DNA of 64,000 nt from Mordavella massiliensis (GCF_016902415.1 NZ_JACJLV010000010.1:1-64000), one strand, 5' to 3'; numbered from the stretch's first letter, positions 8,086 to 40,987 are shown. A program made the numbers and translations. Notes: a model not told the origin generated them from the sequence alone.

Positions 8086-8150
8086 TATGAGAACGGTTGC
8101 ATGTTTATGCATCCGTATGTATCTGAAAGGAAAATGGAGGGACAGGAATT

Positions 8151-9026: not shown

Positions 9027-9053
9027 GAAGCGTTTCAGTAAGAAGAAAATGAA

Positions 9054-9094
9054 AAGGAAGGCGGCAGTTGGTCTGACAGCGCCTTCCTTCTTTT
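9054..9094 (+). terminator. Intrinsic terminator/attenuator after the binding-protein gene
   Basis: AAGGAAGGCG at 9054-9063 pairs with CGCCTTCCTT at 9080-9089, followed by CTTTT. It lies between the binding protein and its permease, so it would lower transporter mRNA relative to the more abundant binding protein. Confidence 0.8.
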
Positions 9095-9108
9095 AAGAAG
9101 GGAAAGTA

Positions 9109-18250: not shown

Positions 18251-18389
18251 TAGATTATCAAAAATAGTGTTTTTTGCCTAAAATATAGAAAATATACACT
18301 AAAAGATAGTCATAGGAAATGGCTATAAGATTATGAAAATTATCAATTGGGATATCATCCAGTCCCTGTGATAAGATGAATCTGTAACA

Positions 18390-18541
18390 TATATAGTGAT
18401 GCCAAGGCATTGAAAAGGGAATCCGGTGAGAATCCGGAACAGCCCGCTCTACTGTGTGATGGATGCATGTTCCAAAGCGCCACCTGGGGACAGGGAAGGC
18501 GGAGCCTGCAGATGAGATCGAGTCAGGAGACCTGCTATATA
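18390..18541 (+). promoter_or_regulatory. Cobalamin (B12) riboswitch
   Basis: The conserved core is clear: AAAAGGGAATCCGGTGAGAA starting near 18412, ATCCGGAACAGCCCGCTCTACTGTG read in parts, then GGGACAGGGAAGGCGG, GATGAGATCGAGTCAGG and AGACCTGC. The closing stem P1 is TATATAG (18390-18396) with CTATATA (18535-18541). It is followed by a strong terminator, so B12 binding probably turns off transcription of the corrinoid methyltransferase cluster downstream. Confidence 0.95.
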
Positions 18542-18556
18542 TGAAGATGATTTTTT

Positions 18557-18604
18557 CGGTGGGGAAAGGACAGCGTTTACGCTGGACTTTTCGCACCGTT
18601 TTTT
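18557..18604 (+). terminator. Riboswitch expression-platform terminator
   Basis: A long stem, CGGTG...CACCG from 18557 to 18598 with inner GGAAAGG/CTTTTC and AGCG/CGCT pairing, followed by six T. It lies between the cobalamin riboswitch and the DUF1638 gene and is the likely off-switch. Confidence 0.9.
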
Positions 18605-18634
18605 GACTTATAAGGATTAAAAAGGACAGGAAAT

Positions 18635-19396
18635 ATGCGCTATAAACTAATTGGCTGCAAAATATTCGAACGCGAAATAGCGAGTGTCACATACCAGTGC
18701 AAGAATCAGATAGATGTTACTCTTTTAAAGCAAAAATTACATAACAGGCCTCAAAGGCTGCAAAAAACAATACAATCTGTAATTGATGCAATTGACGAAG
18801 ATAATGATCTGTATAGTAATACGACGTCTGAAACCCCGTTTGATGCAATTTTATTAGCTTATGGGTTGTGTTCGGGTGCAGTCAGTGGATTGAGCAGCAA
18901 ACAATATCCCCTTGTAATACCTCGTGTTCAAGATTGTATTTCTCTTTTTATGGGAGACCGGGTAAAGTATGAAGAATACTATAAAAATCATGTTGGTACG
19001 TATTATTACACACCTGGGATCGTAGAACTGTGTGATGCGGTAAGATTGGATGATCAGTGGGAACAGAGATACTATTTTCATCTGAAAAGGTTCAACGGTA
19101 ATAAAAAGAAAGCACAGAAGGTTGTTGAAATCGAAAAGAGCTTAACAGATAATTACAGGTCATTAACTTATATAAAATGGGATGAGCTTCCTTTTCCGGA
19201 ATATGAAAAGAAAGTAGAAAAAAAGGCAGGAGATAAAAACTGGACGTATGATCTCGTAAAAGGGAAAAATACATTGTTGAAAAAACTGGTAGACGGAGAA
19301 TGGGATGAAGAAAATTTTTTATTTGTTCCGCCGAAACAGTATGTGACCGAGAGCTATGACGAAGATGTGATTACAGTAATGACAGAAAAAGACTAA
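18635..19396 (+). CDS. DUF1638 domain protein, first gene of the corrinoid cluster
   Basis: A 253-residue soluble protein. The start MRYKLIGCKIFEREI, the segment LLAYGLCSGAVSGL and the segment IPRVQDCISLFMGDR match the DUF1638 pattern, a family repeatedly found beside corrinoid methyltransferases but without a proven activity. Conserved cysteines are in IGCKIF, YGLCSG and QDCISLF, which could bind a metal. The gene is noticeably more AT-rich than its neighbours, which hints at a separate origin. It is the first gene under the B12 riboswitch. Confidence 0.85.
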   Translation: MRYKLIGCKIFEREIASVTYQCKNQIDVTLLKQKLHNRPQRLQKTIQSVIDAIDEDNDLYSNTTSETPFDAILLAYGLCSGAVSGLSSKQYPLVIPRVQDCISLFMGDRVKYEEYYKNHVGTYYYTPGIVELCDAVRLDDQWEQRYYFHLKRFNGNKKKAQKVVEIEKSLTDNYRSLTYIKWDELPFPEYEKKVEKKAGDKNWTYDLVKGKNTLLKKLVDGEWDEENFLFVPPKQYVTESYDEDVITVMTEKD

Positions 19397-19414
19397 GGAC
19401 AGAGAGGAGACGGA

Positions 19415-20392
19415 ATGGACATTGAGATTATATCCGGTTTCCTTGGAGCCGGGAAAACCACTTTTTTAAACCAATATCTTCCTCTTCTCTCCGGGAAGAC
19501 GGCGGTGATTGAAAATGAATTTGGAGACGTGGGACTGGATGGAGATCTAATCCGGGAGAAGGTGCCGGTGAGGGAACTGTATGCAGGATGTATCTGTTGT
19601 ACGCTGGCCATCGATTTTCGCCAGAGTATCCGGGAAATTGCAGAGACATATCAGCCGGACCGCATCGTTATTGAGCCGTCGGGGATTGGAAAGTTGTCAG
19701 ATGTAATCAAGGCCTGTGAGGATGCAAGAGAGAAAGACGGTGTGGAACTTTTAGTTACCAGAAGGATTGTGATCGTAGACGGGGAAGCTTACGAAGAAAG
19801 CGTAGAAGGGTTTGGAGCATTTTATCTGGATCAGATCCGGAACGCACAGATGCTGTTTGTGAGCTGGCTGGAGGGCCTGGAAAAAGAGAAGCAGGAGAAG
19901 ATCCTTACAGATATCCGTGAACAAAATCAGGAAGCTCTTATTTATGCCGGGGATTTTCGCCAGCTGGACGGACAGGAACTTTTGCATTTACTGGAACTTT
20001 CGGAACAGAAGCAATCCGGAAAGACAGTAGATGAACAGCGGGAAGAGGACGTTTTTTCTTCAGGCATTCTATTTTCCAGTATTTCTTTTACAGATCTGCC
20101 GAAAATATCTAAGGAAGAGATGGAAAAGAAACTGGAGAGCTTAAGGGCGGGGAAATATGGCCGTGTCCTTCGGGTGAAAGGACTGGCAGAGATGCCGGAT
20201 GGAGAGAGATATCGTTTTGACCTGACGCCGGGACATACGGAACTTAAGAAAGTGGATCCATTACCGGGAGATACCGGAGAAAGAAAAGTGGTCATTATTG
20301 GAACTGGACTTGACCGGGCAGGACTGGAGACGCTGTTTCTGGGGAAGCAGAAAGTCCGGCTGCCAAAAAAGGGAATGACAGGGAAACGATGA
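19415..20392 (+). CDS. CobW/COG0523-type GTP-binding protein
   Basis: A 325-residue P-loop GTPase. The P-loop GFLGAGKTTF is at residues 8-17, and the COG0523 metal motif C-x-C-C (GCICC, Cys59, Cys61, Cys62) is present, with the Walker B/E-S-S-G-like segment IVIEPSGIGKLSD after it. Family members insert or deliver metals (Zn, Co, Ni) to client enzymes using GTP. Its place between DUF1638 and UroD-type methyltransferases suggests a role in loading zinc into a methyltransferase or handling cobalt/corrinoid, but the client is unknown. It follows DUF1638 by 18 bases. Confidence 0.9.
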   Translation: MDIEIISGFLGAGKTTFLNQYLPLLSGKTAVIENEFGDVGLDGDLIREKVPVRELYAGCICCTLAIDFRQSIREIAETYQPDRIVIEPSGIGKLSDVIKACEDAREKDGVELLVTRRIVIVDGEAYEESVEGFGAFYLDQIRNAQMLFVSWLEGLEKEKQEKILTDIREQNQEALIYAGDFRQLDGQELLHLLELSEQKQSGKTVDEQREEDVFSSGILFSSISFTDLPKISKEEMEKKLESLRAGKYGRVLRVKGLAEMPDGERYRFDLTPGHTELKKVDPLPGDTGERKVVIIGTGLDRAGLETLFLGKQKVRLPKKGMTGKR

Positions 20393-20524
20393 GGGAAAGC
20401 TTGTTTAAAAAGGGGAGGATGTGGTACACTCGAGAAAGAGCGCCTGGATGGCGGCAGTCCGGGCGGCAAAAGACGCGGAAAAAGTATTGTTTGGAAATAC
20501 ATAAAAGAAAAAGGAGGGCTTACC

Positions 20525-21394
20525 TTGGGAGAGATTAAAGATTTTAACTGTACCTATGATAATTCAGCCGGGATAAACGGCGAAGTGACGGAAGGTCTTG
20601 GCCTTACCTTTCCAGACGCCTATCTCCATGCAGACACCATGGCGAAACTGTCCAGGGCTCTGAAAGAGCATGACGGCGCGGCTTTCTGTGAGCTGCCTTT
20701 TTGCCATACAGTAGAGGCGGAAGCCATGGGAGGCCTGGTGAATTACGGAAATGACAAGACGGGTCCCCGGGCAAAGGAGTATATCTGTACGAAGCCGGAA
20801 GAATTGCTGGAGCTGCAGCCCATTGATTTTAGCAAAGGAAGGATCCATGAAGTCCTGCAGGCCTGCCGGATGCTCCGGGAGCAGGGCGAGCATGTGGTGC
20901 TGCAGGTATCCGGTCCATTTACCATCCTGAACGTACTGATCGACGCCCGGTATGTTTTCAAAGCTATGAGAAAACAGCCGGAAGTGATGAAAGAGGTATT
21001 CTGGAAACTGGGAAATGAAGTGTTAAGATTTATGGAAGAAGCAAAAAAATACGGAGTGGATCTGATCAGTTACGCAGATTCTTCCGGCGGAGTAAATATT
21101 CTGGGGCCAAAGATGGCTGAACAGGTGGTGGAGGATTTCACTTATGAATTTTTAAAACAGGTGGAAGGGCTTGCGGATGAACACACGATGATCCTGCTCT
21201 GTCCCAAAACCACATTTGCGCTTCTGGGAACCGGACACGGGAAACTGAAGGATCATCTGACCGAGACCGGGATCCGCTATGGCGAAGCCTGCATCCGGAT
21301 GACGGGCAAGGCAAAGTTCGCGGGCCAGATGTGCATCAAAAATGTGGGATATGAACTGGAAAATGGTATCTTTAAAGAACTGGTATTAATTTAA
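20525..21394 (+). CDS. UroD/MtaA-family methyltransferase-like protein with altered zinc motif
   Basis: A 289-residue member of the uroporphyrinogen decarboxylase superfamily, the group that includes corrinoid-dependent methyltransferases such as MtaA and MtbA. It starts with TTG at 20525 after a strong GGAGGG site. Features are LTFPDAYLHADTMAKLSRAL, FCHTVEAEAMGG and a TIM-barrel pattern with SYADSSGGVNILGPKMAE. It is shorter than its relatives here (339-372 residues). The usual zinc motif His-x-Cys-Gly is replaced by Leu-Leu-Cys-Pro, and further Cys residues occur near the C-terminus (EACIRM, GQMCIKN). It directly precedes the corrinoid protein gene and may be the component that differs in substrate or partner. 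Confidence 0.85.
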   Translation: MGEIKDFNCTYDNSAGINGEVTEGLGLTFPDAYLHADTMAKLSRALKEHDGAAFCELPFCHTVEAEAMGGLVNYGNDKTGPRAKEYICTKPEELLELQPIDFSKGRIHEVLQACRMLREQGEHVVLQVSGPFTILNVLIDARYVFKAMRKQPEVMKEVFWKLGNEVLRFMEEAKKYGVDLISYADSSGGVNILGPKMAEQVVEDFTYEFLKQVEGLADEHTMILLCPKTTFALLGTGHGKLKDHLTETGIRYGEACIRMTGKAKFAGQMCIKNVGYELENGIFKELVLI

Positions 21395-21411
21395 GATGAG
21401 GAGGAACTGCG

Positions 21412-22062
21412 ATGAGCTCAAAAGAAGAATTGTTAAAACGGCTGTCGGACGGCGTATTTGAGATGGAGGAAGATGACGTGGCGGAAGCGGCCCAGGAATA
21501 TCTGGATGCAGGCTATCCTGCTTTCGACGGGATCATGGACGGACTGGTAGACGGAATGAACCGGGCCAGTGAAATGTATGAGCAGGAGGAATATTTCGTA
21601 ACCGATGTGCTGCTCTGCTCTGACGCCATGTATGTGGGGCTGGATATTCTGCGGCCTTATCTGCCGGAAACGAAGGACGACCACAAGGTGAAGGCCGTCA
21701 TTGGCGTAGTGGAGGGCGACACCCACGATATCGGAAAGAATCTGGTAAAGATTATGATGGAAACCGCCGGTTTTGAGATGATCGATCTGGGAAGAGACGT
21801 AGAACTGCAGAAATTTGTGGATACAGCCAAAGAAGAGCATGCAGATATTGTATGTATGTCCACCTTGATGACTACCACCATGGGCGGTATGGAGACGGTG
21901 ATCCATCTGCTGGAGGAGGCCGGGATCCGCGATCAGGTCAAGGTCATGATCGGCGGCGGACCGATTTCCCAGAAATACGCAGATAAGATCGGTGCGGACG
22001 GCTATTCCCAGAATGCGGTGGAAGCAGTAAAACTGGCGAAGAGCCTGATGAAGATTGCATAG
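21412..22062 (+). CDS. Corrinoid (B12-binding) methyl carrier protein, MtaC/MttC-like
   Basis: A 216-residue two-domain protein. Residues 1-90 are the helical cap domain (EYLDAGYPAFDGIMDGLVDG, EEYFVTDVLLCSDAMYVGL). The rest is the B12-binding Rossmann-like domain with the cobalt-ligand motif GDTHDIGKN (His105), then STLMTTTM and IGGGPIS. Such proteins carry a methyl group on cobalamin between a demethylating and an accepting methyltransferase. It sits between two UroD-family genes and upstream of its probable reactivator, RACo. Confidence 0.96.
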   Translation: MSSKEELLKRLSDGVFEMEEDDVAEAAQEYLDAGYPAFDGIMDGLVDGMNRASEMYEQEEYFVTDVLLCSDAMYVGLDILRPYLPETKDDHKVKAVIGVVEGDTHDIGKNLVKIMMETAGFEMIDLGRDVELQKFVDTAKEEHADIVCMSTLMTTTMGGMETVIHLLEEAGIRDQVKVMIGGGPISQKYADKIGADGYSQNAVEAVKLAKSLMKIA

Positions 22063-22074
22063 GAGAAAGAAGAA

Positions 22075-23094
22075 ATGTTGACACCAAAAGAGAGACTGAA
22101 ACTCATTTTTGAAGGCGGACATCCGGACCGGCCGGCATGCATCTGTCCGGGGGGCATGATGAATATGGTGACAAAAGATCTGATGGAGGAAGTGCAGGTC
22201 TATCTGCCGGAGGCTCACACGGACGCAAGAAAGATGGCGGATCTTGCAAAGGCTGTCTATGAGAAGGGCTGCTTTGAAAATTTCGGCGTTCCCTTCTGCA
22301 TGACAGTAGAAGCCGAGGAAATGGGCGCGAAAGTGGATATGGGCACCAACATCTATGAGCCCCATGTGGTGGAATATGTGATCGATTCTGTCAGCGAGGT
22401 GGACAGGCTGACGCCGGTAGACGTAACCAGGGGCAGGGCCAAAGTGGTGACGGACGCGATCCGCATTTTAAAGGAAGAGACAAAGGACGTCCCCATCGTG
22501 GGAAATCTGACCGGGCCGGTGAGCACGGCGAGTTCTGTGATGGAGCCGGTTAATTTCTACAAAGAACTGCGGAAAAAGAATGAAGAGGCCCACCGGTATA
22601 TGGAATTTATCACCGATCAGCTGATCGCTTTCGGGCGGGCGCAGATCGAGGCGGGCGCAGATGTGATTGCCATCTCCGATCCCAGCGGGACGGGCGAGAT
22701 CCTGGGGCCAAAATATTTTGAAGAGTTTGCGGTCACTTATATCAACCGGCTGCTGGGCGGGCTCCAGAAGGAGAAGCTGGGGACCATCGTTCATATCTGC
22801 GGGCAGATGAGTCCGGTATATAAAGAGATTAACGAGGTAAAGAGCAGCGCCTTAAGTTTTGATTCCATCGTGCCGATGAAGGAGGCAAGAAAACATCTTC
22901 CGGACCGCGTGCTGATGGGGAATGTCAGCACTTATGCTCTGGAGTTTGGCGATCCGGAGCGGGTGAAGATGCTGACAAAGAGCTGTATCAAGAGCGGATC
23001 TGATATTATCGCCCCGGCCTGCGGCCTTGGGATGAAATCTCCGCTTGTAAATATTCAGGCGATCCTTGCCTGTATGCAGGAGGACGAAAAGTAA
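22075..23094 (+). CDS. UroD/MtaA-family corrinoid methyltransferase
   Basis: A 339-residue UroD-superfamily protein. The zinc-binding His-x-Cys appears in IVHICGQMSP near residue 240, and the distal Cys in IAPACGLGMKSP near 315; this is the pattern that activates the methyl-accepting thiol in MtaA/MtbA. The N-terminal MLTPKERLKLIFEGGHPDRP is also typical. It begins 13 bases after the corrinoid protein gene and overlaps the RACo gene by one base, so it is tightly co-expressed. It may transfer methyl from the corrinoid protein to an acceptor, but neither substrate nor acceptor is known. Confidence 0.92.
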   Translation: MLTPKERLKLIFEGGHPDRPACICPGGMMNMVTKDLMEEVQVYLPEAHTDARKMADLAKAVYEKGCFENFGVPFCMTVEAEEMGAKVDMGTNIYEPHVVEYVIDSVSEVDRLTPVDVTRGRAKVVTDAIRILKEETKDVPIVGNLTGPVSTASSVMEPVNFYKELRKKNEEAHRYMEFITDQLIAFGRAQIEAGADVIAISDPSGTGEILGPKYFEEFAVTYINRLLGGLQKEKLGTIVHICGQMSPVYKEINEVKSSALSFDSIVPMKEARKHLPDRVLMGNVSTYALEFGDPERVKMLTKSCIKSGSDIIAPACGLGMKSPLVNIQAILACMQEDEK

Positions 23095-24707
23095 TGGCCA
23101 GGATTTGGATCAGACAGACGGGAAAGAGCATTTCCTGCCAGGAGGGCGCCAATCTCCTGGACGCCCTGCTGGAGGGCGGGGCATTTGTGGATAATCCCTG
23201 CAGTGGCAAGGGAATCTGTGGCAAATGTAAAGTGCGGATCTGCCAGGGGGAATTGCCCGCCATGTCTGAAACGGAGCGGGCGCTTCTGAAACCGGAAGAG
23301 ATAGAAGCCGGGATTCGCCTGTCCTGCATGATCGATGTGAACGGGACCATGGAAGTGGAGCTTCTGAAAAAAGAACGGAAGCACGAAGTGCTGACAAAGG
23401 GATATATCCCTGCATTTGAAAAAGATCATTTTGACGAAGGATACGGGATCGTGATCGACATCGGCACCACAACGGTGGTGACAGCGCTGGTGGAACTTTC
23501 CACAGGACAGGAACTGGCAAGCGCGTCCATGATCAATGCTCAGAAGCATTACGGGCTGGATGTGCTGACCCGGATCACTTATGAATACGAGCACCCGGAG
23601 ACCGGAGTGAAAGATCTTCAGGAAGCGATCGTACAGTCCGTGAACGGCATGATCGGGGAGGTCTGTGAAGAGGCGGGCGTTTCCAGAGAAGAGATCCGGG
23701 AAATCGATGTGGCGGCGAACTGTACCATGACACACATGCTGCTGGGAGTAGATGCAAGAAGCATCGGCAGGTCCCCGTACCGGCCGGAGTTTACGAAGGC
23801 ACAGGAACTCCCTGCATCCCGGATCGGCATCGAAGCAGGAAAAGATACGGTTCTTTACTGCCTTCCTCAGGTGTCGGCCTACATAGGGGCAGATATTGTG
23901 GCAGGGACCTATGTGTGTGAATTGCAAAAAGAAAAAGGGCATGTTCTGTTTATCGATATCGGTACCAATGGCGAGATCGTTCTGACCAGTAACGGGCGGA
24001 TCCTGTGCTGTTCCTGCGCGGCAGGACCGGCCCTGGAGGGCATGAACATCAGCGCCGGCATGCGGGCGGCGCAGGGCGCCATCGAGGATGTGAAGATTAC
24101 AGAAGAGGGTGTGAAGATCCAGGTGATCGGCAACCGGGAAGACGACAGGCAGGAGCCGGCAGGCATTTGCGGAAGCGGGATTCTGGCAGTGGTGAAAGAA
24201 CTGTTGCGTACCGGCCTGGTAAAAAAGACTGGAGCCTTTATCAAGAAGGACAGGCTCTCCCCGGAGGATTACCGGTTTCCGATGCTTCAGCTGAACGGGA
24301 CCAAACGGGAATTCATCCTTCATGAGAAGCCGCAGATCCTGGTGACCCAGGGAGACGTGCGTCAGGTGCAGCTGGCGAAAGGCGCGATCCTGTCCGGGTT
24401 CACAGCCCTTCTCAGGGAAGCGCAGATCGACATGGAGGATCTTGACAAGGTGATGATCGCCGGCCAGTTCGGCGCCCATCTTCCGGCGGATTCTCTGATT
24501 GGAACAGGAATCCTTCCGGATGCGGTAAAAGATAAGCTGGTGTATGTGGGCAACTCTTCCAAGACAGGAGCCTACATGGCGCTGATGTCAAAAAAGGCGA
24601 AGCAGGAGATGGAAAAACTGGCAGAAGAAATGGAATATATGGAACTTGCAGAAACGGAAAATTACGAGAGGATCTTTACAGACAGCATGATATTTCCGAC
24701 GTTTTAA
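23094..24707 (+). CDS. RACo-type ATP-dependent reductive activator of corrinoid proteins
   Basis: A 537-residue protein. The N-terminal [2Fe-2S] ferredoxin domain has Cys36, Cys42, Cys45 and Cys78 (NPCSGKGICGKC ... RLSC). The rest is the DUF4445/ASKHA-like domain, with IDIGTTTVVTALVEL, CTMTHMLLG and FIDIGTNGEIVLTSNG as ATP-binding segments and IAGQFGAHL near the end. RACo proteins use ATP to drive reduction of inactive Co(II) to Co(I) on the corrinoid carrier. The gene overlaps the preceding UroD gene by one base and the next begins 11 bases later. Confidence 0.94.
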   Translation: MARIWIRQTGKSISCQEGANLLDALLEGGAFVDNPCSGKGICGKCKVRICQGELPAMSETERALLKPEEIEAGIRLSCMIDVNGTMEVELLKKERKHEVLTKGYIPAFEKDHFDEGYGIVIDIGTTTVVTALVELSTGQELASASMINAQKHYGLDVLTRITYEYEHPETGVKDLQEAIVQSVNGMIGEVCEEAGVSREEIREIDVAANCTMTHMLLGVDARSIGRSPYRPEFTKAQELPASRIGIEAGKDTVLYCLPQVSAYIGADIVAGTYVCELQKEKGHVLFIDIGTNGEIVLTSNGRILCCSCAAGPALEGMNISAGMRAAQGAIEDVKITEEGVKIQVIGNREDDRQEPAGICGSGILAVVKELLRTGLVKKTGAFIKKDRLSPEDYRFPMLQLNGTKREFILHEKPQILVTQGDVRQVQLAKGAILSGFTALLREAQIDMEDLDKVMIAGQFGAHLPADSLIGTGILPDAVKDKLVYVGNSSKTGAYMALMSKKAKQEMEKLAEEMEYMELAETENYERIFTDSMIFPTF

Positions 24708-24718
24708 GGAGAATGCGT

Positions 24719-25837
24719 ATGGAATATGAAGAACTGAAACGACTGATGAACGAGCAGAAGGTGGAAATGACGGCAGAGGAACGGATGAAGGCTTATAACG
24801 CAGGGGAGGAAGTGGATCACATCCCCTATACCCTGCAGGCGCCGGATCCGGCCATGGCGGACATTTTCGGATTCACCACCACACAGTTTGCGAAAGATTT
24901 TGAAGTGAAGAGCGAAGTGATCCGGAGAAGAAAAGAAGAATTCGGACTGGACAGCTTCAATGTGGGGCTGGGATTAAAGACCATCGGCGGCGCGCTGGGG
25001 TCGAAGCTTGCCGCGCCGGAGCATGGCATCGACTATGTGGCAGAGCATGTGTTACAGGATTATGCGGATTTTGACAAACTGGAAGTCACAGATCCCTATA
25101 AGAATCCGGTGCTTGCGCCCATCCTGGAAAGCGCGAAGCGTCTGAAGGAGAGGTTCCCGGATGTGAGCATGACCACCAGCGTGGCAGGCCCGATGTCAAC
25201 GGCTATCGCTGTGCGCCCTGTGGAAAAGGTTCTGAAAGATACCCGGAAAAATCCGGAGATGCTGCATAAGCTTCTGGATCTGACAGTGGAATGTTCCCTG
25301 AAATGGTTCGAGGCATTTGCCCGCGAGTTCGGGCCGGTGGCCACGAATTTCTCGGACCCTGTGACCTGTATGGATGTGATCAGTAAGCCGCAGTTTGATG
25401 AATTTTCACTGCCCTATATCAAAAAGCTGATCGACGGGACGGAGAAGATCATGGGATCCCGGCCCGGCGCGCATATCTGCGGAAAGACCAGTCCCATCTG
25501 GAAGGATCTGGCGGATGCAGGGCTGTTTTCTTTTAGTATTGATAACTGCGAGGATCTGGAAGTGGCGAAGAAAGCAGTGGGAGACCGGATGCGGATCGCC
25601 GGAAATGTGCCGCCGGTGGACGTGATGAAGGAGGGAACCATCGACGACGTGATCGCTTCCTGCAGGGAATGTCTGGAAAAATGTGCTGATAATCCGGCCG
25701 GGTACATCCTGAACACCGGATGCCAGCTGCCTATCGGCACGCCAAAAGCCAACGTGGAGGCGTTCATCTACGCGGCCAGGAAGTACGGCAGAGGCGCGAG
25801 GCTGGGAAAGATGCCGCGAGGGCTGGAAGAAGAATAA
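24719..25837 (+). CDS. UroD/MtaA-family corrinoid methyltransferase
   Basis: A 372-residue UroD-superfamily protein. Zinc ligands are recognisable in GAHICGKTSPIW near residue 250 and in NTGCQLPIGTP near 340. The start at 24719 is chosen because AAGGAG is 7 bases upstream; the ATG at 24713 is too close to it. It is the last gene before a strong terminator, so it closes the B12-regulated operon. Its closest relative in the window is the lone UroD-family protein at 34920 (both have HxCGKT and TGC motifs). It could be the substrate-specific demethylase or the second methyltransferase. Confidence 0.92.
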   Translation: MEYEELKRLMNEQKVEMTAEERMKAYNAGEEVDHIPYTLQAPDPAMADIFGFTTTQFAKDFEVKSEVIRRRKEEFGLDSFNVGLGLKTIGGALGSKLAAPEHGIDYVAEHVLQDYADFDKLEVTDPYKNPVLAPILESAKRLKERFPDVSMTTSVAGPMSTAIAVRPVEKVLKDTRKNPEMLHKLLDLTVECSLKWFEAFAREFGPVATNFSDPVTCMDVISKPQFDEFSLPYIKKLIDGTEKIMGSRPGAHICGKTSPIWKDLADAGLFSFSIDNCEDLEVAKKAVGDRMRIAGNVPPVDVMKEGTIDDVIASCRECLEKCADNPAGYILNTGCQLPIGTPKANVEAFIYAARKYGRGARLGKMPRGLEEE

Positions 25838-25854
25838 AAAGAACTGATGCGATA

Positions 25855-25886
25855 CAGGCCGGGGATGCCACCCCGGCCTGATTTTT
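25855..25886 (+). terminator. Strong intrinsic terminator of the corrinoid operon
   Basis: CAGGCCGGGG / CCCCGGCCTG (10 bp, 6-base loop) followed by ATTTTT, 18 bases after the last methyltransferase gene. Confidence 0.95.
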
Positions 25887-25904: not shown

Positions 25905-25933
25905 TTGACAGGGGAAACGGGGATTGTTATAAT
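25905..25933 (+). promoter_or_regulatory. Perfect-consensus sigma-A promoter
   Basis: TTGACA at 25905-25910, 17-base spacer, TATAAT at 25928-25933. It fixes the start of the next gene at 25953, because the longer in-frame reading from 25905 would begin inside the -35 box. Confidence 0.93.
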
Positions 25934-26797: not shown

Positions 26798-27811
26798 ATG
26801 GGAAAAACAAATGTAGCGGTTAATCGTTGGCTGGCAGACAACGAGCGTTTTGCCGACCTGTTTAATGGTTTCATGTTTCATGGAAAGCAGATCATTCAGC
26901 CAGAGGATCTGGAAAATCTGGATCGGGAAGCAGATATCTTGATCACAGATAAAAGTGGGAAAACACGAGGGGTACAGAGATATCGGGATATCATTAAAAG
27001 ATGGAAGAAGGATATGAAGCTGGTAGTTCTGGCGTGTGAATCACAGAATAAAATCCATTATGCAATGCCGGTGAGAAATATGCTTTATGATAGTCTCGCA
27101 TATACAGACCAGATCCAGGAAACATGGCGGTGGCAGAAAAAGGGAAGTATAATGACTGGAGAGGAGTTCCTTTCCAGATTTCGCCGCGGGGATAAAATCT
27201 ATCCGGTAATTACGCTTGTCTTTTATTATGATGTGAAAAAATGGGATGGAGCAGTGGATTTATATGGAATGTTTCCGGAAATGCAAGATGGGGAGATGAA
27301 GGATGTGTTACACAAATTTGTGCCCAATTATTGGATCAATCTGGTGGATGCCGGGGAGATTGAGCGAGTGGAGCACTTTCGCACAGATTTACAACAGGTA
27401 TTTGGCATGTTAAAATATAGAAATAAAAAAGAGGAATTACAGCAATATATTCATCAGAATCAGGAATATTTCAGCAGTGTAGATGTGGAGACATATCAGG
27501 CGCTGGGAGAGTTCCTACATATGGAGAAGGAGTTGGAAAAGATGGCAGATGTAAGGAAGGGGGAAAAGGTTGATATGTGTCAGGCGTTGAAGGAATGGTA
27601 TGCGGATGGCGTGGAAGAAGGTAGAAGTGAGGGCAGAAGTGAAGGCAGAAGCGAAGGCAGAAGCGAGGGCAGAGCAGAACTGTTGAAAGAATTGATTGAT
27701 AAGAAGAGAAAGAAAGGTCTGTCTGTGGAAGAGATTGCGGATATCCTGGAAGTGGATGCTAAGACTGTTCGGGAGCTGGCGGGAAAGGATGTAAATAGAA
27801 AAAGGAAATAA
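26798..27811 (+). CDS. Rpn-family recombination-promoting nuclease (PD-(D/E)XK, transposase_31-like)
   Basis: A 337-residue protein of the Rpn/transposase_31 type. The nuclease core is seen in EADILITD and VVLACESQNKIHYAMPVRN (Asp and E-x-Q catalytic positions). The C-terminal third holds a charged tandem repeat of E-G-R-S followed by KKGLSVEEIADILEVDAKTV, the small helical tail common in these proteins. Rpn proteins cleave DNA and raise RecA-independent recombination in E. coli; in Clostridia they occur in many copies. Gene flanks show no terminal inverted repeats that would mark a transposon. Confidence 0.85.
   Translation: MGKTNVAVNRWLADNERFADLFNGFMFHGKQIIQPEDLENLDREADILITDKSGKTRGVQRYRDIIKRWKKDMKLVVLACESQNKIHYAMPVRNMLYDSLAYTDQIQETWRWQKKGSIMTGEEFLSRFRRGDKIYPVITLVFYYDVKKWDGAVDLYGMFPEMQDGEMKDVLHKFVPNYWINLVDAGEIERVEHFRTDLQQVFGMLKYRNKKEELQQYIHQNQEYFSSVDVETYQALGEFLHMEKELEKMADVRKGEKVDMCQALKEWYADGVEEGRSEGRSEGRSEGRSEGRAELLKELIDKKRKKGLSVEEIADILEVDAKTVRELAGKDVNRKRK
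27617..27676 (+). repeat. Five tandem 12-bp repeats inside the Rpn gene
   Basis: Five in-frame units of the form GARGGYAGAAGY encode repeated Glu-Gly-Arg-Ser. Two neighbouring units (27641-27664) are identical, which suggests recent slippage, so copy number may vary between strains. Confidence 0.9.
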
Positions 27812-27923: not shown

Positions 27924-29117
27924 GTGGCAAACGAATTACCAAAGAATTTTGAAGAATTTGCGGATGCCCGCCGCGCGGGATTTTTGAAAATGAAAGAGGT
28001 AAAGGATCAGGGGAAACAGGTATGCGGGATGTTCTGTCAGTATACCCCGGCAGAGATCATTCACGCCGCCGGGCTGAAACAGGTGGCTCTTTGCGGACGC
28101 AGCCATTTGCCGATCAAAACTGCTGAGACCAGGCTTCCGGCAAATCTCTGCCCGCTGATTAAGGCAAGCTTCGGGCATGTGCTGGAGGACAGCTGTCCAT
28201 TTGCATATTTCTCGGATATTGTTGTAGGAGAGACAACCTGTGACGGAAAGAAGAAAATGTATGAGCTTCTGGGGGAATATAAACCGATGCAGGTCATTCA
28301 CCTGCCCAATGTTCCGGATTATGACCGTTCCCTGGAAATGTGGGTGTCAGAGGTCCGGAAATTTAAGGAAGGGCTGGAGGAACATTTTCATATCACTATT
28401 ACGGATGACATGCTGAATGCGTCCATTGTCTGGAATAATAAGCTCAGGACCCAGCAGGCCCGGCTTTACGAGTTGGGCAAGTATGATCCGCCGGCGGTTA
28501 CCGGTGTGGTTATGAACGACGTGACGGACGGCCTGCAGTTTATGTTTGATGACGAAGCAAAATATGAAAAAATATCTTCGATCATTGAGGAATGTGAAAA
28601 GAATTGGAAGGAAGGGAAATATCCGGTGGAACCGGATCCGACCCGGCCAAGGCTGATCGTATCCGGGGGCGGATATGTGGCAACCAATGAGAAGACTATT
28701 AATGTTATGGAAGAACTGGGAGCGTCTATAGTCTGTTACGAAGGCTGCTGTGGAATTTCTTCGCTCAGGCGTACTGTAGATGAGGACACCAGCCGCGATC
28801 CGATCGTACGTATCGCGGAAAAATATCTGGAGGTACCCTGCGCAGTAGTTTCGCCAAATACGAGACGGATGGAGCAGGTGGCAGATACTATTGACGAGTG
28901 GAAGGCAGACGGCTATGTCAGCATTACTCTTCATTCCTGCAATCCATTTGCCATTGAAACGGAAAATCTGAGACGTTTGTGTGAATCCAAGGGAATCCCG
29001 CTGCTGCATATCCAGACGGACTTTACTCCCGGTGACGAAGCACAGATCCGTACCAGGATCGAAGCGTTTATCGAGATGATCCGGGAAAGCAAAAAGGAGG
29101 CATTGACACATGAATAA
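27924..29117 (+). CDS. 2-hydroxyacyl-CoA dehydratase D-type / double-cubane iron-sulfur protein
   Basis: A 397-residue protein of the HgdB/FldC family. Cysteines likely to bind the iron-sulfur cluster are in VCGMFCQYTPAEI, LPANLCPLIK, DSCPF and the family motif ETTCDGKKKMYELL. It starts with GTG at 27924 after GGAGGAAG. Members dehydrate 2-hydroxyacyl-CoA with radical chemistry or, in the double-cubane group, perform other low-potential reductions. It overlaps the next, homologous gene by 8 bases. No activator gene of the HgdC type is next to it. Confidence 0.88.
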   Translation: MANELPKNFEEFADARRAGFLKMKEVKDQGKQVCGMFCQYTPAEIIHAAGLKQVALCGRSHLPIKTAETRLPANLCPLIKASFGHVLEDSCPFAYFSDIVVGETTCDGKKKMYELLGEYKPMQVIHLPNVPDYDRSLEMWVSEVRKFKEGLEEHFHITITDDMLNASIVWNNKLRTQQARLYELGKYDPPAVTGVVMNDVTDGLQFMFDDEAKYEKISSIIEECEKNWKEGKYPVEPDPTRPRLIVSGGGYVATNEKTINVMEELGASIVCYEGCCGISSLRRTVDEDTSRDPIVRIAEKYLEVPCAVVSPNTRRMEQVADTIDEWKADGYVSITLHSCNPFAIETENLRRLCESKGIPLLHIQTDFTPGDEAQIRTRIEAFIEMIRESKKEALTHE

Positions 29118-30201
29118 GAAGACACTTCAGGAGTTGATCTCAAACTGTCATGCCGCCGGCAAAAAAACAGCAGTTTCTTTTTGCTCCCATGTTCCGCAGG
29201 AGATTCTTGAGGCAGCGGGGATCTGCAGCCTGCGGCTTCCTTATGTGGGGGGAGTAGATGACGCGGCGTCTCACATACTTGTAAGCAATGTCTGTCCCAT
29301 CGTAAAAAATGTATGTAATGTGTGCGAGGACTCTGCGCTTGCTGACGTGGATTTGATTTTTGCGGAAACCTCCTGCGATGGAAAGAAGAAAATGTATGAA
29401 CTGCTTTCCGATCAGAAGCGGATTTATTTTTATCAGGTAGGACAGGGGGCAGACCGGGAATACGTAAGACCTCTGATCAAGTCAGAGGTAAAATATCTGA
29501 TCAGAGAACTGGGAAAACGGTTTGGCGTCCGCATCACAGAAGACGACATACGTGAAGCTGCAAAGCTCGTTAATGAAGAAAGACAAAGTATTCTGGATCT
29601 TATGGCGATCCAGAAAGCAAAGCCCGCTGCCGCATGGGGCACGGAGATTTTCAGGGCGCTGGAAGAACACCGGACAGTTCCGGATATCAGAGAGCGTATC
29701 GCGGCAAACAGGAAGACAAAAGAGGAGTTGCTTGCCCAAAAAAGTCCTGTTGGAAAAAGCGCCAGAAGGGTTCTTGTCACGGGCTGCCCTATGAGCGGCG
29801 TGTATGAAAAAATCGCAAGTACCATAGAATCCAACGGCGGCGTGGTAGTTGCCTTTGAAAACTGTGAAGTGATCAAATCCGCAATCCGTCATTTTGATAC
29901 AGAAAATGAGGACATCATGGAAGCCTTTGCCGACTGCTATCAACAGACGGCCTGCGCGATCATGTCCCCTAATACTGTGCGGTTTGATCTGATCCGGCAA
30001 CTGACAGACGAATACCAGGTCGACGGGGTGCTGGATGTCACGCTGCAAACCTGCCATCCTTATACGGTGGAGCGGGATAAAATGATGCGGTTGTGCAGAG
30101 AAGAACTTGGGATTCCGTACATGGCGGTAGAAACCGATGTGACAGATTCGGATGCAGGGCAGCTCGCAACAAGAATAACAGCGTTTCTGGAAATGATCTG
30201 A
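29110..30201 (+). CDS. Second 2-hydroxyacyl-CoA dehydratase-like subunit (paralogue of the previous gene)
   Basis: A 363-residue protein of the same fold as its upstream neighbour: VSFCSHVPQEILEAAGI, NVCPIVKNVCNVCEDS and ETSCDGKKKMYELL match the first gene's motifs in order. The pair therefore looks like an alpha/beta heterodimer formed by duplication. It has additional cysteines (VCNVC, GCPMSG, ENCEV) that could ligate clusters. The overlap of 8 bases indicates translational coupling. Substrate is unknown. Confidence 0.86.
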   Translation: MNKKTLQELISNCHAAGKKTAVSFCSHVPQEILEAAGICSLRLPYVGGVDDAASHILVSNVCPIVKNVCNVCEDSALADVDLIFAETSCDGKKKMYELLSDQKRIYFYQVGQGADREYVRPLIKSEVKYLIRELGKRFGVRITEDDIREAAKLVNEERQSILDLMAIQKAKPAAAWGTEIFRALEEHRTVPDIRERIAANRKTKEELLAQKSPVGKSARRVLVTGCPMSGVYEKIASTIESNGGVVVAFENCEVIKSAIRHFDTENEDIMEAFADCYQQTACAIMSPNTVRFDLIRQLTDEYQVDGVLDVTLQTCHPYTVERDKMMRLCREELGIPYMAVETDVTDSDAGQLATRITAFLEMI

Positions 30202-34160: not shown

Positions 34161-34918
34161 ATGGGTAACACGTATACCACGGAATTGCCGTCAGCAAACA
34201 GGATTTTTAAATCCAGTGTTTTTACGATGCTGTACAGCGATCCCAAAGAGGCGCTGCAGTTGTATAATGCGGTAAATGGAACTGAATATAAGGATCCTGA
34301 ACTTCTGGAAATTAACACACTTGAGTATCCGATTTGTATTCGGTTATGACCAAAGACCACGACCTGTATTCGGAGAAGATGATTTCCATTCCGGCGCCCC
34401 GGTTTGTGATCTTTTATAACGGGGAAAAGAAGCGGCCGGAGCAGGAAGTGCTGCGGCTGTCTGACGCGTATTTTATCAGGGAAGAGCACCCGGCGCTGGA
34501 ACTGGAAGCGGTCATGCTGAATATTAATGCAGGAAATAACCCGGAATTATTAAAAGCGTGTAAGTCACTGGGAGAATATGCGGAATATGTGGCAAAAGTG
34601 CGCCGGTATGCAAAGGACATGGCTCTTGCGGAAGCGGTGGAACGTGCGATCACAGAGTGTATCCAGGAAGGGATCCTTGCAGATTTTTTGGAGAGGAACC
34701 GGGCAGAGGTGAAAAAAGTGAGTTTATATGAGTATGATGCAGAGAAGCACATGCGGCAGGTGCGGGAAGAAGCAAAAGAAGATGGGCGGATGGAACTTTT
34801 GCAGGAGCAGATTGCAAAGAAACTGGAAAAGGGTCTGTCTGTTCAGGAGATTGCGGAGGCTCTGGAGGAAGAACCGGATACCATCCGTAATTTGATCACG
34901 CATAAGAAAGAGGGATAA
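34161..34918 (+). pseudogene. Broken Rpn-family nuclease gene (frameshift plus internal deletion)
   Basis: The first 55 codons (34161 to about 34330: FKSSVFTMLYSDPKEALQLY, GTEYKDPELLEINTLEYP) are the typical start of Rpn-family proteins. The frame then stops at 34347. The rest of the family pattern continues in a different frame from about 34346 to 34918 (SEKMISIPAPRFVIFYNGEKK; tail KGLSVQEIAEALEEEPDTIRN). The part between, which normally carries the catalytic D...E-x-Q residues, is missing. It therefore cannot make an active nuclease. A good ribosome site (AAGGAGGAG) still precedes 34161. Confidence 0.85.
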
Positions 34919-34919: not shown

Positions 34920-35984
34920 ATGAGAGCACATCCACATCCGGCGGATCAGATGACGCCGGTGGAACGAAAGAAAGCGCTAGAGGAAGGAAGGGACTTTGAC
35001 CGGTATCCGGCGGTCCCTTTTATGAGTGAGTTTAAATGTCTGTTTACCGGGATCGGCGTCTGGGATTTCTGGCACGATCCGGTTAAGATGGCAGAGGCGG
35101 AACTCCGGGTGTTTGAAAGGTTCGGACAGGACCGGATCGTGATCGGTCCCAATACCCGGGGGATTGCCGAGGCGCTGGGAGCAGAATATGTTTACCCGGA
35201 AAATGGCGTGCCCTACGCGGGCCGGCCAAAGCTGTCGGATTACGGGATGCTGGAAGGGATGGAACCGGTGGACGCAAAAAGCAATCCCAGAATCCGGGAT
35301 TTTGCCCGGGCGGCGGAGCTTCTGATGGAAGCCGCGGGAGAGATCGTGCCGGTGGAGGCGAGTATCGGCGGTCCTTTTACGCTTGCGGCAAATTTGCGGG
35401 GCGTTGAACTTCTATTGAGAGATCTTAGGAAATGTCCCCTGGAGGTGCAAAAAACCCTGCGGCTTATAACGGACAGTCAGAAAAGCTGCATCGATATGGC
35501 TGCGGAATACGGGCTTGGCATTGCCATGGCGGATCCGGTGGCCAATCCGATGCTGGTTGGGCCGAAGATCTACGAAGAGTTTGTGTTCCCATACACCAAA
35601 GAGCTGACCGATTATGCATTTTATAAAACCGGGAAAAAGGTTTCTCTCCACATGTGCGGCAAGACCAACAGCATCTGGAAGTATCTGGCAAAGTACGAGT
35701 TAAATGAGATCAGCCTGGATAATATTGTGGATCTTGAGGAGGCTGCTAAGGATCTGGGAAGATTTGTACCAATCGCCGGTAACGTAGACCCGGTAGAGGT
35801 GATGCTGAACGGAACTGCGGACGAGATCAGGGAGGCGGTTGCGCGCTGTATCGGAATGGGTGAAAAGGCGGAAAAAGGATATACGCTGACCACCGGCTGT
35901 GATATCCCGGAGACCACCAGGCCGGAGCAGGTGGACGTTTTTATGGATGCGGCAAGGGAGTATAGCCGGAACTGCCACTTATAG
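34920..35984 (+). CDS. Stand-alone UroD/MtaA-family methyltransferase
   Basis: A 354-residue UroD-superfamily protein. The zinc motif is SLHMCGKTNSIWKYL near residue 244, with the distal Cys in LTTGCDIPETTRP near 327. The start at 34920 lies two bases after the stop of the broken Rpn gene, and no strong ribosome site of its own is visible apart from AAAGAGGG. It is most similar in motif to the protein at 24719. There is no corrinoid protein gene beside it; it might use the carrier encoded at 21412 or one elsewhere. Confidence 0.88.
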   Translation: MRAHPHPADQMTPVERKKALEEGRDFDRYPAVPFMSEFKCLFTGIGVWDFWHDPVKMAEAELRVFERFGQDRIVIGPNTRGIAEALGAEYVYPENGVPYAGRPKLSDYGMLEGMEPVDAKSNPRIRDFARAAELLMEAAGEIVPVEASIGGPFTLAANLRGVELLLRDLRKCPLEVQKTLRLITDSQKSCIDMAAEYGLGIAMADPVANPMLVGPKIYEEFVFPYTKELTDYAFYKTGKKVSLHMCGKTNSIWKYLAKYELNEISLDNIVDLEEAAKDLGRFVPIAGNVDPVEVMLNGTADEIREAVARCIGMGEKAEKGYTLTTGCDIPETTRPEQVDVFMDAAREYSRNCHL

Positions 35985-36129
35985 AAAAAGACAATAAATA
36001 TAAAAATATATTAGAATTATTGATTTGTTGCCACATTGCAATAATGTTAAACTTATGTCGAGTACGGATAGGCCGAGTCGGATTTTTAAGAAGAACAGCA
36101 TACCCGAAAAAAGACAGGAGGAAAATATT

Positions 36130-37428
36130 ATGAAGAAGAAATGGCTGAGCGCCCTGCTGGTTACAGCTATGGTGACCGGTCTGGCGGCAGGATGCGGCAA
36201 CAATGGAGAAGAAGAACCATCCGAAGAAGGCGGCAAGACACTGGAAGTGTGGCTGGCTCCACTGGATGATGATACGGAGAAAAACTGGGGAGACCTGCTT
36301 GGCGACTGGGAAAAAGAGCATGACTGTACCGTCGACATTACAGTAATCCCGTGGGATAAATATCAGGAAACCTATTCTACAGCAATGAGCTCCGGCGAGG
36401 GCCCGGATGTAGGATATATGTACAATGAGATGATCCTTCCTTATATTGAGTCCGGTGCGATCGTAGATATGACCGACTACATTACCGAGGAAGACGAGGC
36501 AGAGTACAAATATCTGCAGAACGGATATATGATGGACGGACAGTATGGCTGGCCGCTGGTAACAGGCGTTCCTTTCGTGCTGTATTACAATGTGGATATC
36601 TTAAATGAACTGGGCGAGCAGCCGCCGGAAACCTGGGATGATTTCGTAAGAATCTGTGAGAAGGCAACTCAGGATACCGATGGCGACGGCGAGATCGACC
36701 AGTACGGATATGCGGTTGGTATGAACACCACAGATATCGGACCTACACAGATCCTGAACGCATACTACTACAGCGTACTGTGGCAGAATGGAAGCAACAT
36801 TTACAATGACGATATGAAGAGTGTAAGATTTGCGGACGAAGCAGGAACAGAAGCGATGACCTGGATGAAAGACCTGACCCAGTACATGAATCCTGACTTC
36901 ATGTCCTACTCCTGGTCTGACGCATTCTCCACTATTTTCGGAGAAGGAAAGGCTGCCTTTGGCGTAAACCGTTCCGCACAGACAGACGAGACTACTTATG
37001 CAGAGTCTTATCCGGATCTGAACTGGGATTATGTGACATCTCTGAAAAATGTTGATTATGGCACATTCGGAGCAACCGACAGCCTGACACTGATGTCTGA
37101 CGCTGACGATCCGGATCTGGCTATGGAATTTATCAAGTATGTGACCGGCGCTGAGTTTATGGAGCAGTACCACGCAAAATGCCCGGGCGCTGCGCTGACT
37201 AACAGCGAGCCTTATGTCGGCGATCCGAAGATGGAGCGCATCTATACAGAGGATACAGATAAATGGCACGGCATCCAGGTTGGACCTTGCGGAGATGAGA
37301 TCCTGACACAGCTTGCTGCAGATCTTCAGGGAATTATGACCGGAGAACTGACGGTAGAAGAAGGACTTGCAGAGGCAGAGGAGTATTCCAACCAGCTGCT
37401 GGATGAATACTGGGCAGATAAAGAATAA
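36130..37428 (+). CDS. Sugar ABC transporter substrate-binding lipoprotein (family 1)
   Basis: A 432-residue lipoprotein. The signal peptide ends in lipobox LAAGC (Cys about 20), followed by an acidic linker. The mature part has the family 1 pattern (VDITVIPWDKYQETYSTAM, GPDVGYMYNEMI, IVDMTDYI). The start at 36130 has AGGAGG upstream and is preferred to a longer in-frame reading from 36025. It heads a set with MalF- and MalG-like permeases and a DUF4091 glycosidase, suggesting a glycan or oligosaccharide ligand. Confidence 0.94.
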   Translation: MKKKWLSALLVTAMVTGLAAGCGNNGEEEPSEEGGKTLEVWLAPLDDDTEKNWGDLLGDWEKEHDCTVDITVIPWDKYQETYSTAMSSGEGPDVGYMYNEMILPYIESGAIVDMTDYITEEDEAEYKYLQNGYMMDGQYGWPLVTGVPFVLYYNVDILNELGEQPPETWDDFVRICEKATQDTDGDGEIDQYGYAVGMNTTDIGPTQILNAYYYSVLWQNGSNIYNDDMKSVRFADEAGTEAMTWMKDLTQYMNPDFMSYSWSDAFSTIFGEGKAAFGVNRSAQTDETTYAESYPDLNWDYVTSLKNVDYGTFGATDSLTLMSDADDPDLAMEFIKYVTGAEFMEQYHAKCPGAALTNSEPYVGDPKMERIYTEDTDKWHGIQVGPCGDEILTQLAADLQGIMTGELTVEEGLAEAEEYSNQLLDEYWADKE

Positions 37429-39301: not shown

Positions 39302-40987
39302 ATGGTGAAAACACAGACAGAAATCAACTACGAGATGAAATTATTAAGTTCCCTGGACAAGGTATTTCAGGACGAGACGCCGGTCTACCGCCCGGAGTGC
39401 ATGAAGTTAAGCGCCCTGTGGGGAGAGACGGTGTCTTATCAGGCAGCCTACACCGGCGACTTCTTTATGCGGGAGCGACTTCAGGTGCAGGTGGTGTCAG
39501 AGATCGCAGACGCCGTGCGGGTGCGGACTGTGGAACAGGTGCCGGTAGGACGGGCCACCAACGGGATCGTGGATGATAATTACTTAAAGACCACCTCCGG
39601 ACTCTATCCGGATCTTCTTCGGGATCTTCCGGAAGACCGGAAAGTGATCGTGTGCTCCCGCCAGTGGAGAAGCCTGTGGATCGATGTGAAGGTCACAGAT
39701 CAGATCCCGGCAGGGGATTATGAGATTGAGATCCGTCTTCTGAAAGAAGAGGAGCCGGTCTGCTCCTGTATTGTAAAACTTCATGTGATCGGGACCGCGC
39801 TTCCGAAGCAGGAGATCATGCATACAGAGTGGATGCATGCCGACTGCCTGGCGGATTATTATCATGTGCCGGTATTTTCTGAGGAGCATTGGCAGATCCT
39901 GGAAAATTTCTTTGCGGAATATGTGGATCGGGGCTGCAATATGATGCTGGTGCCGTTATTTACCTCTCCTCTTGACACAGCGATCGGTCTGGAGCGGACC
40001 ACCACCCAGCTGGTAGAAGTGGAGGTAAAGGACGGACAGTATAGCTTCGGATTTGACAAGGTGAAGCGCTGGATCGACCTGTGCCGGAAATACGGCATCG
40101 AATATTTTGAAATGTCCCATCTGTTCTCCCAGTGGGGTGCGAAATATGCGCCCAAGGTGGTGGCAAAGGTGGATGGAAAAGAAGAAAAGATCTTCGGCTG
40201 GCACACACCGGCTGTGGGCGAGTACACCAATTTCCTGCACGCCTTTCTTCCACAGCTGATCGGAAAGCTGAAAGAATGGGGCATTGCGGAACATACGTAT
40301 TTCCATATCTCCGATGAGCCAAGAGAAGAGCATCTGGAAAGTTACCGGGCGGCCAAAGAATCCTTGGGAGATCTGCTTTCCGGTTTCCATACCTTTGACG
40401 CGCTTTCCAGCTATGAATTCTATAAGCATGGTCTGGTGGACAAACCGATCCCGGGCAACAATGAGATCGAAGAATTTCTGGAGCACGGCCTGACAGATAT
40501 GTGGACCTATTACTGTACCGGACAGTTCTATGAAGTAAGCAACCGCTTCATGTCCATGCCTTCTGCAAGAAACAGGATTTATGGCATACAGCTGTATAAA
40601 TACGATATCATCGGGATCCTGCACTGGGGCTATAATTTTTACAACACCCAGTTTTCCATTGAACATATCAATCCCTATGAGGTGACAGACGCAGGCAATG
40701 CATTCCCGGCCGGGGATCCTTTCCTGGTCTATCCGGGAAAGGACCGTCATCCGGAAGAGTCGATCCGTATGATGGTACATTATGAAGCACTGACAGACCT
40801 TCGGGCATGTAAGCTTCTGGAGAGCCTGACCTCTAAGGAGCATGTGATGGAACTGATTGAGGAGGATCTGACGGAACCTCTGACCTTCCGGAAATATCCG
40901 AAGTCAGACATGTATCTTCTGACCCTCAGAAACCGGATCAACCGGGAGATTGAGAAGTTTGTAAAGGACACAGCTAAGGGAGACTAA
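39302..40987 (+). CDS. DUF4091 / GH123-like glycoside hydrolase
   Basis: A 561-residue protein without a signal peptide. An N-terminal beta-rich domain (to about residue 165) precedes a TIM-barrel-like region. The segment YFHISDEPREEHL near residue 334 holds the paired Asp-Glu typical of GH123 beta-N-acetylgalactosaminidases, which use substrate-assisted catalysis. DUF4091 proteins are related to that family. Location after a sugar ABC transporter supports intracellular processing of an imported, perhaps N-acetylated, oligosaccharide. Enzyme specificity is not proven. Confidence 0.85.
   Translation: MVKTQTEINYEMKLLSSLDKVFQDETPVYRPECMKLSALWGETVSYQAAYTGDFFMRERLQVQVVSEIADAVRVRTVEQVPVGRATNGIVDDNYLKTTSGLYPDLLRDLPEDRKVIVCSRQWRSLWIDVKVTDQIPAGDYEIEIRLLKEEEPVCSCIVKLHVIGTALPKQEIMHTEWMHADCLADYYHVPVFSEEHWQILENFFAEYVDRGCNMMLVPLFTSPLDTAIGLERTTTQLVEVEVKDGQYSFGFDKVKRWIDLCRKYGIEYFEMSHLFSQWGAKYAPKVVAKVDGKEEKIFGWHTPAVGEYTNFLHAFLPQLIGKLKEWGIAEHTYFHISDEPREEHLESYRAAKESLGDLLSGFHTFDALSSYEFYKHGLVDKPIPGNNEIEEFLEHGLTDMWTYYCTGQFYEVSNRFMSMPSARNRIYGIQLYKYDIIGILHWGYNFYNTQFSIEHINPYEVTDAGNAFPAGDPFLVYPGKDRHPEESIRMMVHYEALTDLRACKLLESLTSKEHVMELIEEDLTEPLTFRKYPKSDMYLLTLRNRINREIEKFVKDTAKGD

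Follow-up and report, generated by a model that had tools for sequence, protein, structure and literature searches.

A cobalamin-riboswitch operon of Mordavella massiliensis that is probably a type 1 mlp gene cluster with a predicted role in selenium or sulfur demethylation

The mlp gene clusters (MGCs) are a recently described and scarcely characterised cluster family, thought to strip methyl groups off selenium or sulfur compounds (Kountz and Balskus, 2023, preprint, PMC10418091). According to this preprint, 87% of the clusters co-occur with the selenocysteine (Sec) machinery, the Mlp2 of C. ljungdahlii methylates selenide in vitro and, as summarised there, an Mlp2 is needed for the use of dimethylselenide by Methanococcus voltae. 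C. drakei is named as a carrier of type 1, and the last five genes of its locus match the C. ljungdahlii order (PMC10418091). A His-Cys-Cys set of zinc ligands separates the sulfur/selenium methyltransferases from the O-methyltransferases, in which one or both cysteines are replaced (PMC10418091). Two other families have also been connected to corrinoid proteins: COG0523 subfamily 13, noted beside corrinoid methyltransferases in 2009, Clostridium botulinum included (Haas et al., PMC2770081), and DUF1638, for which there is genetic evidence in Phaeobacter, where it shows cofitness with a RamA-like activase (PMC5764234).

The window analysed here comprises 64,000 nucleotides of M. massiliensis, a gut bacterium of the Lachnospiraceae (GCF_016902415.1, NZ_JACJLV010000010.1:1-64000), with positions counted from its first letter. 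An earlier note on this DNA had described a riboswitch with its terminator, seven co-directional genes and a closing terminator, and all of these elements are present, the seven open reading frames running in one direction from 18635 to 25837:

18377..18553, + strand: cobalamin riboswitch aptamer (RF00174, 111.1 bits, gathering score 31.5, E 5.6e-27)
18557..18604, + strand: rho-independent terminator, the riboswitch expression platform (hairpin 18557-18598, -27.7 kcal/mol, then six T)
18635..19396, + strand: DUF1638 protein, 253 aa (PF07796, 121.7 bits)
19415..20392, + strand: COG0523 (CobW-type) G3E GTPase, 325 aa, with a GCICC motif (PF02492, 118 bits; PF07683, CobW_C)
20525..21394, + strand: gene C, short UroD-fold protein, 289 aa, TTG start (URO-D, partial, 90 bits)
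21412..22062, + strand: corrinoid-binding methyl carrier protein, 216 aa (PF02607, B12-binding_2, and PF02310, B12-binding)
22075..23094, + strand: gene E, MtaA-like UroD methyltransferase (URO-D; PRK06252, 422 bits, cut-off 244)
23094..24707, + strand: RACo/Ram-type ATP-dependent corrinoid reductive activase, 537 aa (Fer2, RACo_middle and RACo_C_ter)
24713..25837, + strand: gene G, UroD methyltransferase (URO-D, 196 bits)
25855..25880, + strand: closing intrinsic terminator of the operon (10-bp stem with 9 GC pairs, then ATTTTT)

The families named in that note (DUF1638, CobW-type GTPase, three UroD proteins, corrinoid carrier and RACo) are borne out by Pfam and NCBIfam models, with the corrinoid protein scoring 203 bits against TIGR02370, under its 215-bit cut-off. 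The description as a B12-riboswitch-controlled corrinoid system that has only UroD-type methyltransferases and no demonstrated substrate is likewise supported. All three UroD proteins belong to the URO-D family as claimed, with the refinement that the leftmost, C, is short and lacks the zinc histidine, while the longer E and G match MtaA/CmuA-type models and not the heme-pathway HemE. A HemE role was discarded, all five UroD matches of the genome being MtaA-like and none lying near the HemE cut-off where checked.

Minimum-energy folding together with duplex scoring gave a possible pairing of -24.4 kcal/mol between the riboswitch and the 5' arm of its terminator. The usual cobalamin riboswitch is of the OFF type, and such a switch would repress a B12-dependent system precisely when B12 is plentiful, which is odd for the explanation preferred below. 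Of 19 related loci sampled, eight have a cobalamin riboswitch ahead of the cluster, each together with a COG0523 gene, and in at least seven of the eight the riboswitch stands directly before that gene. Ahead of the mlp clusters of C. drakei and C. carboxidivorans, the other strand carries a glycine riboswitch (L069 5740-5829 and L072 5624-5712). Directly behind the operon terminator there is a consensus TTGACA-17-TATAAT promoter with extended TG (25905-25933), placed before a gene for a YczE-like membrane protein, which Merdimonas faecis likewise retains next to its cluster; the sigma-70 consensus promoter at 25905 is the start of the next transcription unit.

The gene set of an MGC is present in the operon (C, E, G, the corrinoid protein and RACo). 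Its three UroD proteins match MtaA (4ay7) at E-values of 4e-49 (E), 1e-22 (G) and 3e-14 (C), and membership was judged by these matches, not by exact per-protein identities under the >25% identity rule of the preprint (PMC10418091). The core genes, 20525-25837, share one direction with no divergent gene between them and a largest gap of 17 bp, where the definition allows up to 2 kb, and no THF methyltransferase homologue lies within 20 kb, since the PF00809 matches are on other contigs only. In a tree that included MtaA (4ay7) and took a HemE fragment as outgroup, E is in one clade with the Mlp3 of C. drakei (support 98/98), C is in the Mlp1 clade (100/100) and G is in a broad clade with the C. 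drakei Mlp2 (99/96), yet in a subclade of its own. The G-type clade stands outside a group (MtaA,(C,E)), with C and E as sisters, which is the published Mlp topology (PMC10418091). Topology and clades together identify C as Mlp1, E as Mlp3 and G as a member of the Mlp2 clade. The C. drakei locus has the order COG0523, C, Mlp2 (UroD), corrinoid protein, E, RACo, and identity to its orthologues reaches 67% for E and 62% for C; between G and the Mlp2 of C. drakei it drops to 32%, so that the substrate of G may differ. Judging from these features, the operon is probably an mlp gene cluster of type 1.

A search for E-type proteins in 85,000 species genomes returned 440 relatives, which makes the type 1 cluster widespread, although its substrates have hardly been tested. 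Among the 80 loci kept, the corrinoid protein (77/80), RACo (75/80), the C-type protein (73/80) and an Mlp2-clade UroD (72/80) were found in most, a COG0523 gene in 29 and DUF1638 in nine. The earlier note had taken the arrangement to be undescribed, and had stated that this would fail if the UroD proteins fell within characterised clades with known substrates and the gene order were already known. With the UroD phylogeny and the gene-order survey now run, this is largely what happened: the cluster type is published (PMC10418091) and the UroD proteins fall in the Mlp1, Mlp2 and Mlp3 clades.

Aligned to MtaA (4ay7), the zinc motifs read H240-I-C242...C316 in E and H254-I-C256...C337 in G, and thus the His-Cys-Cys ligands of Mlp2 and Mlp3 that characterise type 1 are found in G and E. 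The signature of the UroD-type aryl O-demethylases OdmB and VdmB, a zinc-site cysteine replaced by a carboxylate or a non-ligand, is absent, both cysteines being kept in E and G. Conservation of this His-X-Cys...Cys site of thiol/selenol methyltransferases argues against O-demethylation, and it points to sulfur or selenium methyl groups and away from the methoxyaromatics, methylamines and betaine that had been put forward as test compounds. Gene C has lost the histidine of the motif, an exception also noted for some Mlp1 proteins (PMC10418091). Its Cys9, Cys226 and Cys270 are invariant among the 72 C-type sequences compared, and its AlphaFold2 model (pLDDT 93.5; 92.5 for the model of G) has its best PDB fold matches in the methyltransferase structures 4ay8 and 4ay7 (TM 0.65 and 0.63). 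The invariant cysteines and the confident methyltransferase-like model indicate that C is a real, conserved and divergent Mlp, the metal site of which is likely Cys-based. Selenocysteine inside the UroD enzymes was ruled out by a read-through scan of the 80 loci, with no in-frame TGA within any UroD domain. The G gene of Dorea phocaeensis (L053 12576-13690) is split by an in-frame TAG, not TGA, and otherwise intact, representing either a recent pseudogene or a sequencing error.

Besides G, the host genome has two more enzymes of the Mlp2 clade, U34 within the window and UroD_C88 on another contig. The features of the window relevant here are:

27924..29117, + strand: double-cubane-cluster protein (DCCP), in a separate transcription unit (NF040772, 436 bits, cut-off 350)
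29110..30201, + strand: second HGD-D/DCCP-like protein, overlapping the first (PF06050, 274 bits; NF040772, 314 bits, under 350)
34920..35984, + strand: U34, second Mlp2-clade UroD in the window, with H-M-C...C (PF01208, 211 bits; tree)
36025..37428, + strand: carbohydrate-type ABC solute-binding protein (SBP_bac_8, SBP_bac_1)
37511-38398 and 38405-39232, + strand: two ABC permeases (BPD_transp_1 in both)
39302..40987, + strand: GH123 protein (beta-N-acetylgalactosaminidase family) with the DE catalytic pair, HISDEP (PF13320, 374 bits)

U34 heads a tight co-directional set (34920-40987) with the binding protein, the two permeases and the GH123 enzyme, which has no apparent signal peptide and is apparently intracellular. 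The cluster (E plus C) is present in 8 of 145 relatives, and close homologues of U34 were found in five relatives, all within these eight cluster-positive genomes (chance ~1e-7, relatedness ignored). GH123 adjoins the cluster in five related loci (L040, L041, L047, L052 and L055), with the order corrinoid protein, C, E, RACo, U34, GNAT, GH123 in L052, and a sugar importer stands beside U34 in six loci beyond these five. Of the five, L041 belongs to Merdimonas faecis, a relative in culture that has both the cluster and the U34-GH123 locus. Linkage of the U34-importer-GH123 set to mlp clusters, beside them or within them, was seen in several Lachnospiraceae. Among the relatives, GH123 occurs in four of the eight cluster-positive and 11 of the 137 cluster-negative genomes (p = 0.004); it was rejected as a strictly cluster-specific gene on account of the latter, one of which has it with a sugar importer and no UroD. 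At L167 (genome G087, 3955-9543), GNAT, a sugar ABC importer and GH123 have no UroD with them; genes of the molybdenum-cofactor type lie alongside, and the genome has a Sec-containing SelD and no mlp cluster. The GH123 family consists of beta-N-acetylgalactosaminidases but has members with other beta-hexosaminide specificity too (PMC11087588), so the substrate of the glycosidase at the U34 locus is only presumptive.

UroD_C88 (L031 9099-15212, host contig C88) is accompanied by a putative membrane transporter, a MetQ/MetI/MetN-like importer and a double-cubane protein, and sets homologous to this locus stand inside, near or upstream of the cluster in several relatives. The double-cubane family, frequent in type 1 mlp clusters, was found near 15 of the 80 related clusters. 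Two proteins of the window that resemble Rpn-type transposase/nuclease homologues (26798-27811 and 34334-34918) have no Pfam match, and the first carries EGRS repeats near its C-terminus. The presence of two further Mlp2-clade enzymes, with a MetNIQ-type importer and with a sugar importer plus GH123 respectively, appears to be new.

With regard to selenium, the host genome encodes a SelD with a Sec codon in its GUAAK motif as well as tRNA-Sec, the Sec-biosynthesis trait of the type 1 selenium group. Among the relatives, seven of the eight cluster-positive genomes have selD, against 39 of the 137 that lack the cluster (Fisher p 0.0014, relatedness ignored), an association that rests on eight positive genomes, three of them from one genus. 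All seven SelDs of the cluster-positive genomes contain Sec, and the eighth genome, 83% complete, has tRNA-Sec. This pattern agrees with the co-occurrence reported in the preprint. We consider it reasonably likely, from the gene content and the predicted zinc sites, that the operon is a type 1 cluster acting as a corrinoid-dependent selenium/sulfur demethylation module, with methyl-selenium the likelier substrate and methyl-sulfur its main rival. The same cluster might have a purely methyl-sulfur job (methionine salvage, or the use of methanethiol or of a methylthio-sugar), selenium being incidental. The zinc ligands do not separate selenium from sulfur by sequence, MetNIQ carries methionine too, an importer of this type stands beside UroD_C88 and inside or near the clusters of several relatives, and a sulfur role has been proposed for ~10% of clusters (PMC10418091). 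However, the sulfur type is tied to genomes without selenium traits (PMC10418091), whereas this host has the Sec-containing SelD and tRNA-Sec and such SelDs are enriched among the cluster-positive relatives, so we regard this alternative as unlikely.

Much less room is left for an aryl-methyl-ether or other O- or N-demethylase feeding one-carbon metabolism. UroD-family O-demethylases (OdmB, VdmB) do exist, with the same overall module of methyltransferase, corrinoid protein and activase, but according to the preprint they lie outside the Mlp clades, and O-methyltransferases do not keep the full ligand set seen here (PMC10418091). The host genome, 99.9% complete and searched whole for methyltransferase families, speaks against it too. 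There is no match to MttB (PF06253) anywhere in it and no stand-alone THF/pterin methyltransferase, the only two matches to PF00809, both on other contigs, being interpreted as one dihydropteroate synthase and one MetH of 799 aa; as far as MttB-type and stand-alone pterin-binding methyltransferases are concerned, what the earlier note had said of the operon extends to the whole genome. No THF methyltransferase partner, a trait of the OdmB/VdmB clusters, is encoded on the contig. Acetyl-CoA synthase is also absent from the host genome, in a search that did score positive for three acetogens, and acetogenic use of the methyl group was rejected on these grounds. With neither acetyl-CoA synthase nor these methyltransferases, the host does not obviously send the methyl group to acetogenesis, and demethylation of O- or N-methyl compounds seems very improbable. 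No more credible is corrinoid-dependent methionine synthesis or repair, with the methyl group ending on homocysteine and bypassing methyl-THF: MetE and the Mlps share a fold, and in Phaeobacter genetic data link DUF1638 and RamA-like proteins with methionine synthase (PMC5764234), but the host already has MetH and the cluster is sporadic among the relatives, unlike a core biosynthetic route.

For the preferred selenium/sulfur demethylation module, G would use its Zn His-Cys-Cys site to bind the selenium or sulfur of a methylated selenide or sulfide and hand the methyl group over to the Co(I) of the corrinoid carrier; the product would be sulfide or, as a supply for the Sec-containing SelD, selenide. 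E, close to MtaA, would be the acceptor arm, moving the methyl group from methyl-Co(III) to a thiol acceptor, with C as a divergent third Mlp. RACo would reset Co(I) with ATP, and DUF1638 likely aids this corrinoid reactivation, given its co-fitness with the RamA-like activase in Phaeobacter. The COG0523 GTPase, the inclusion of which had been presented as a puzzle, has had precedent since 2009 (PMC2770081), and the traits of subfamily 13 are found in it (GCICC as the CXCC motif, PF02492 and a neighbourhood of corrinoid methyltransferases); it is most naturally taken for a zinc metallochaperone that would supply the Mlps.

A conserved hub could be formed by Mlp1, Mlp3, RACo and the corrinoid protein, with Mlp2-clade enzymes as interchangeable donor-specific spokes, of which the host genome would have three: G, UroD_C88 with its MetNIQ-type importer and double-cubane protein, and U34 with its sugar importer and GH123. 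The high identity of E and C to their C. drakei counterparts and the low identity of G fit an acceptor side that stays the same and a donor side that varies. On this view the conserved corrinoid hub stands apart from the three candidate donor enzymes, two of which come with an uptake system of their own, and specific substrate predictions follow. One of these concerns CH3-Se-beta-GalNAc, the selenosugar excreted by mammals, which restores selenoproteins in rats by a demethylation mechanism that the authors call unclear, suggesting the intestinal flora (PMC5372522). Uptake of the host selenosugar by the importer, release of methylselenol by GH123, transfer of the methyl group by U34 to the hub and delivery of selenide to SelD is a speculative scheme, hypothesised from gene context, and we hold it to be quite improbable as it stands, although no route to selenosugar use would be simpler than a GH123 beta-N-acetylgalactosaminidase together with a methylselenol demethylase. 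If true, the bacterial part of that use would have a specific candidate pathway in the operon at 34.9-41.0 kb.

The operon differs in make-up from the described clusters of its poorly characterised type, and its function is predicted. As in the type 1 MGCs of C. ljungdahlii and C. drakei, Mlp1, an Mlp2-clade enzyme, Mlp3, a corrinoid protein and a Ram/RACE activase are encoded in one direction with no THF methyltransferase nearby, in a Sec-using genome with an associated double-cubane protein and methionine importer. In contrast to them, the Mordavella operon begins with DUF1638, ends with a gene of a divergent subclade in the Mlp2 role, carries a cobalamin riboswitch and has extra Mlp2-clade paralogues elsewhere in the genome, a sugar importer and GH123 accompanying one of them; the text of the preprint mentions no riboswitch, sugar, glycosidase or CobW (PMC10418091). 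The Phaeobacter inhibens pair of RamA-like activase and DUF1638 (PMC5764234) resembles the operon in combining DUF1638, a RACo/RamA-like activase and a corrinoid protein, but belongs to a marine alphaproteobacterium, where a split methionine synthase is what it serves. To COG0523 subfamily 13 the GTPase is likened by motif and neighbourhood, the Mordavella gene having a cobalamin riboswitch upstream. The soluble coenzyme M methyltransferases MtaA and MtbA of Methanosarcina (4ay7) share the UroD fold and the His-X-Cys...Cys zinc site, although E and C are sister to MtaA and not inside it, in a tree that holds a single such enzyme. Unlike for MtaA and MtbA, coenzyme M use is not expected in a bacterial host. 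Finally, the SdmABC system for dimethylselenide demethylation in Methanococcus voltae and M. maripaludis is alike, by its description in the citing papers, in its corrinoid protein, Mlp2-type UroDs and use of methyl-selenium, and differs in being archaeal and in SdmC, described there as a coenzyme M methyltransferase (cited in PMC10418091, PMC11097638).
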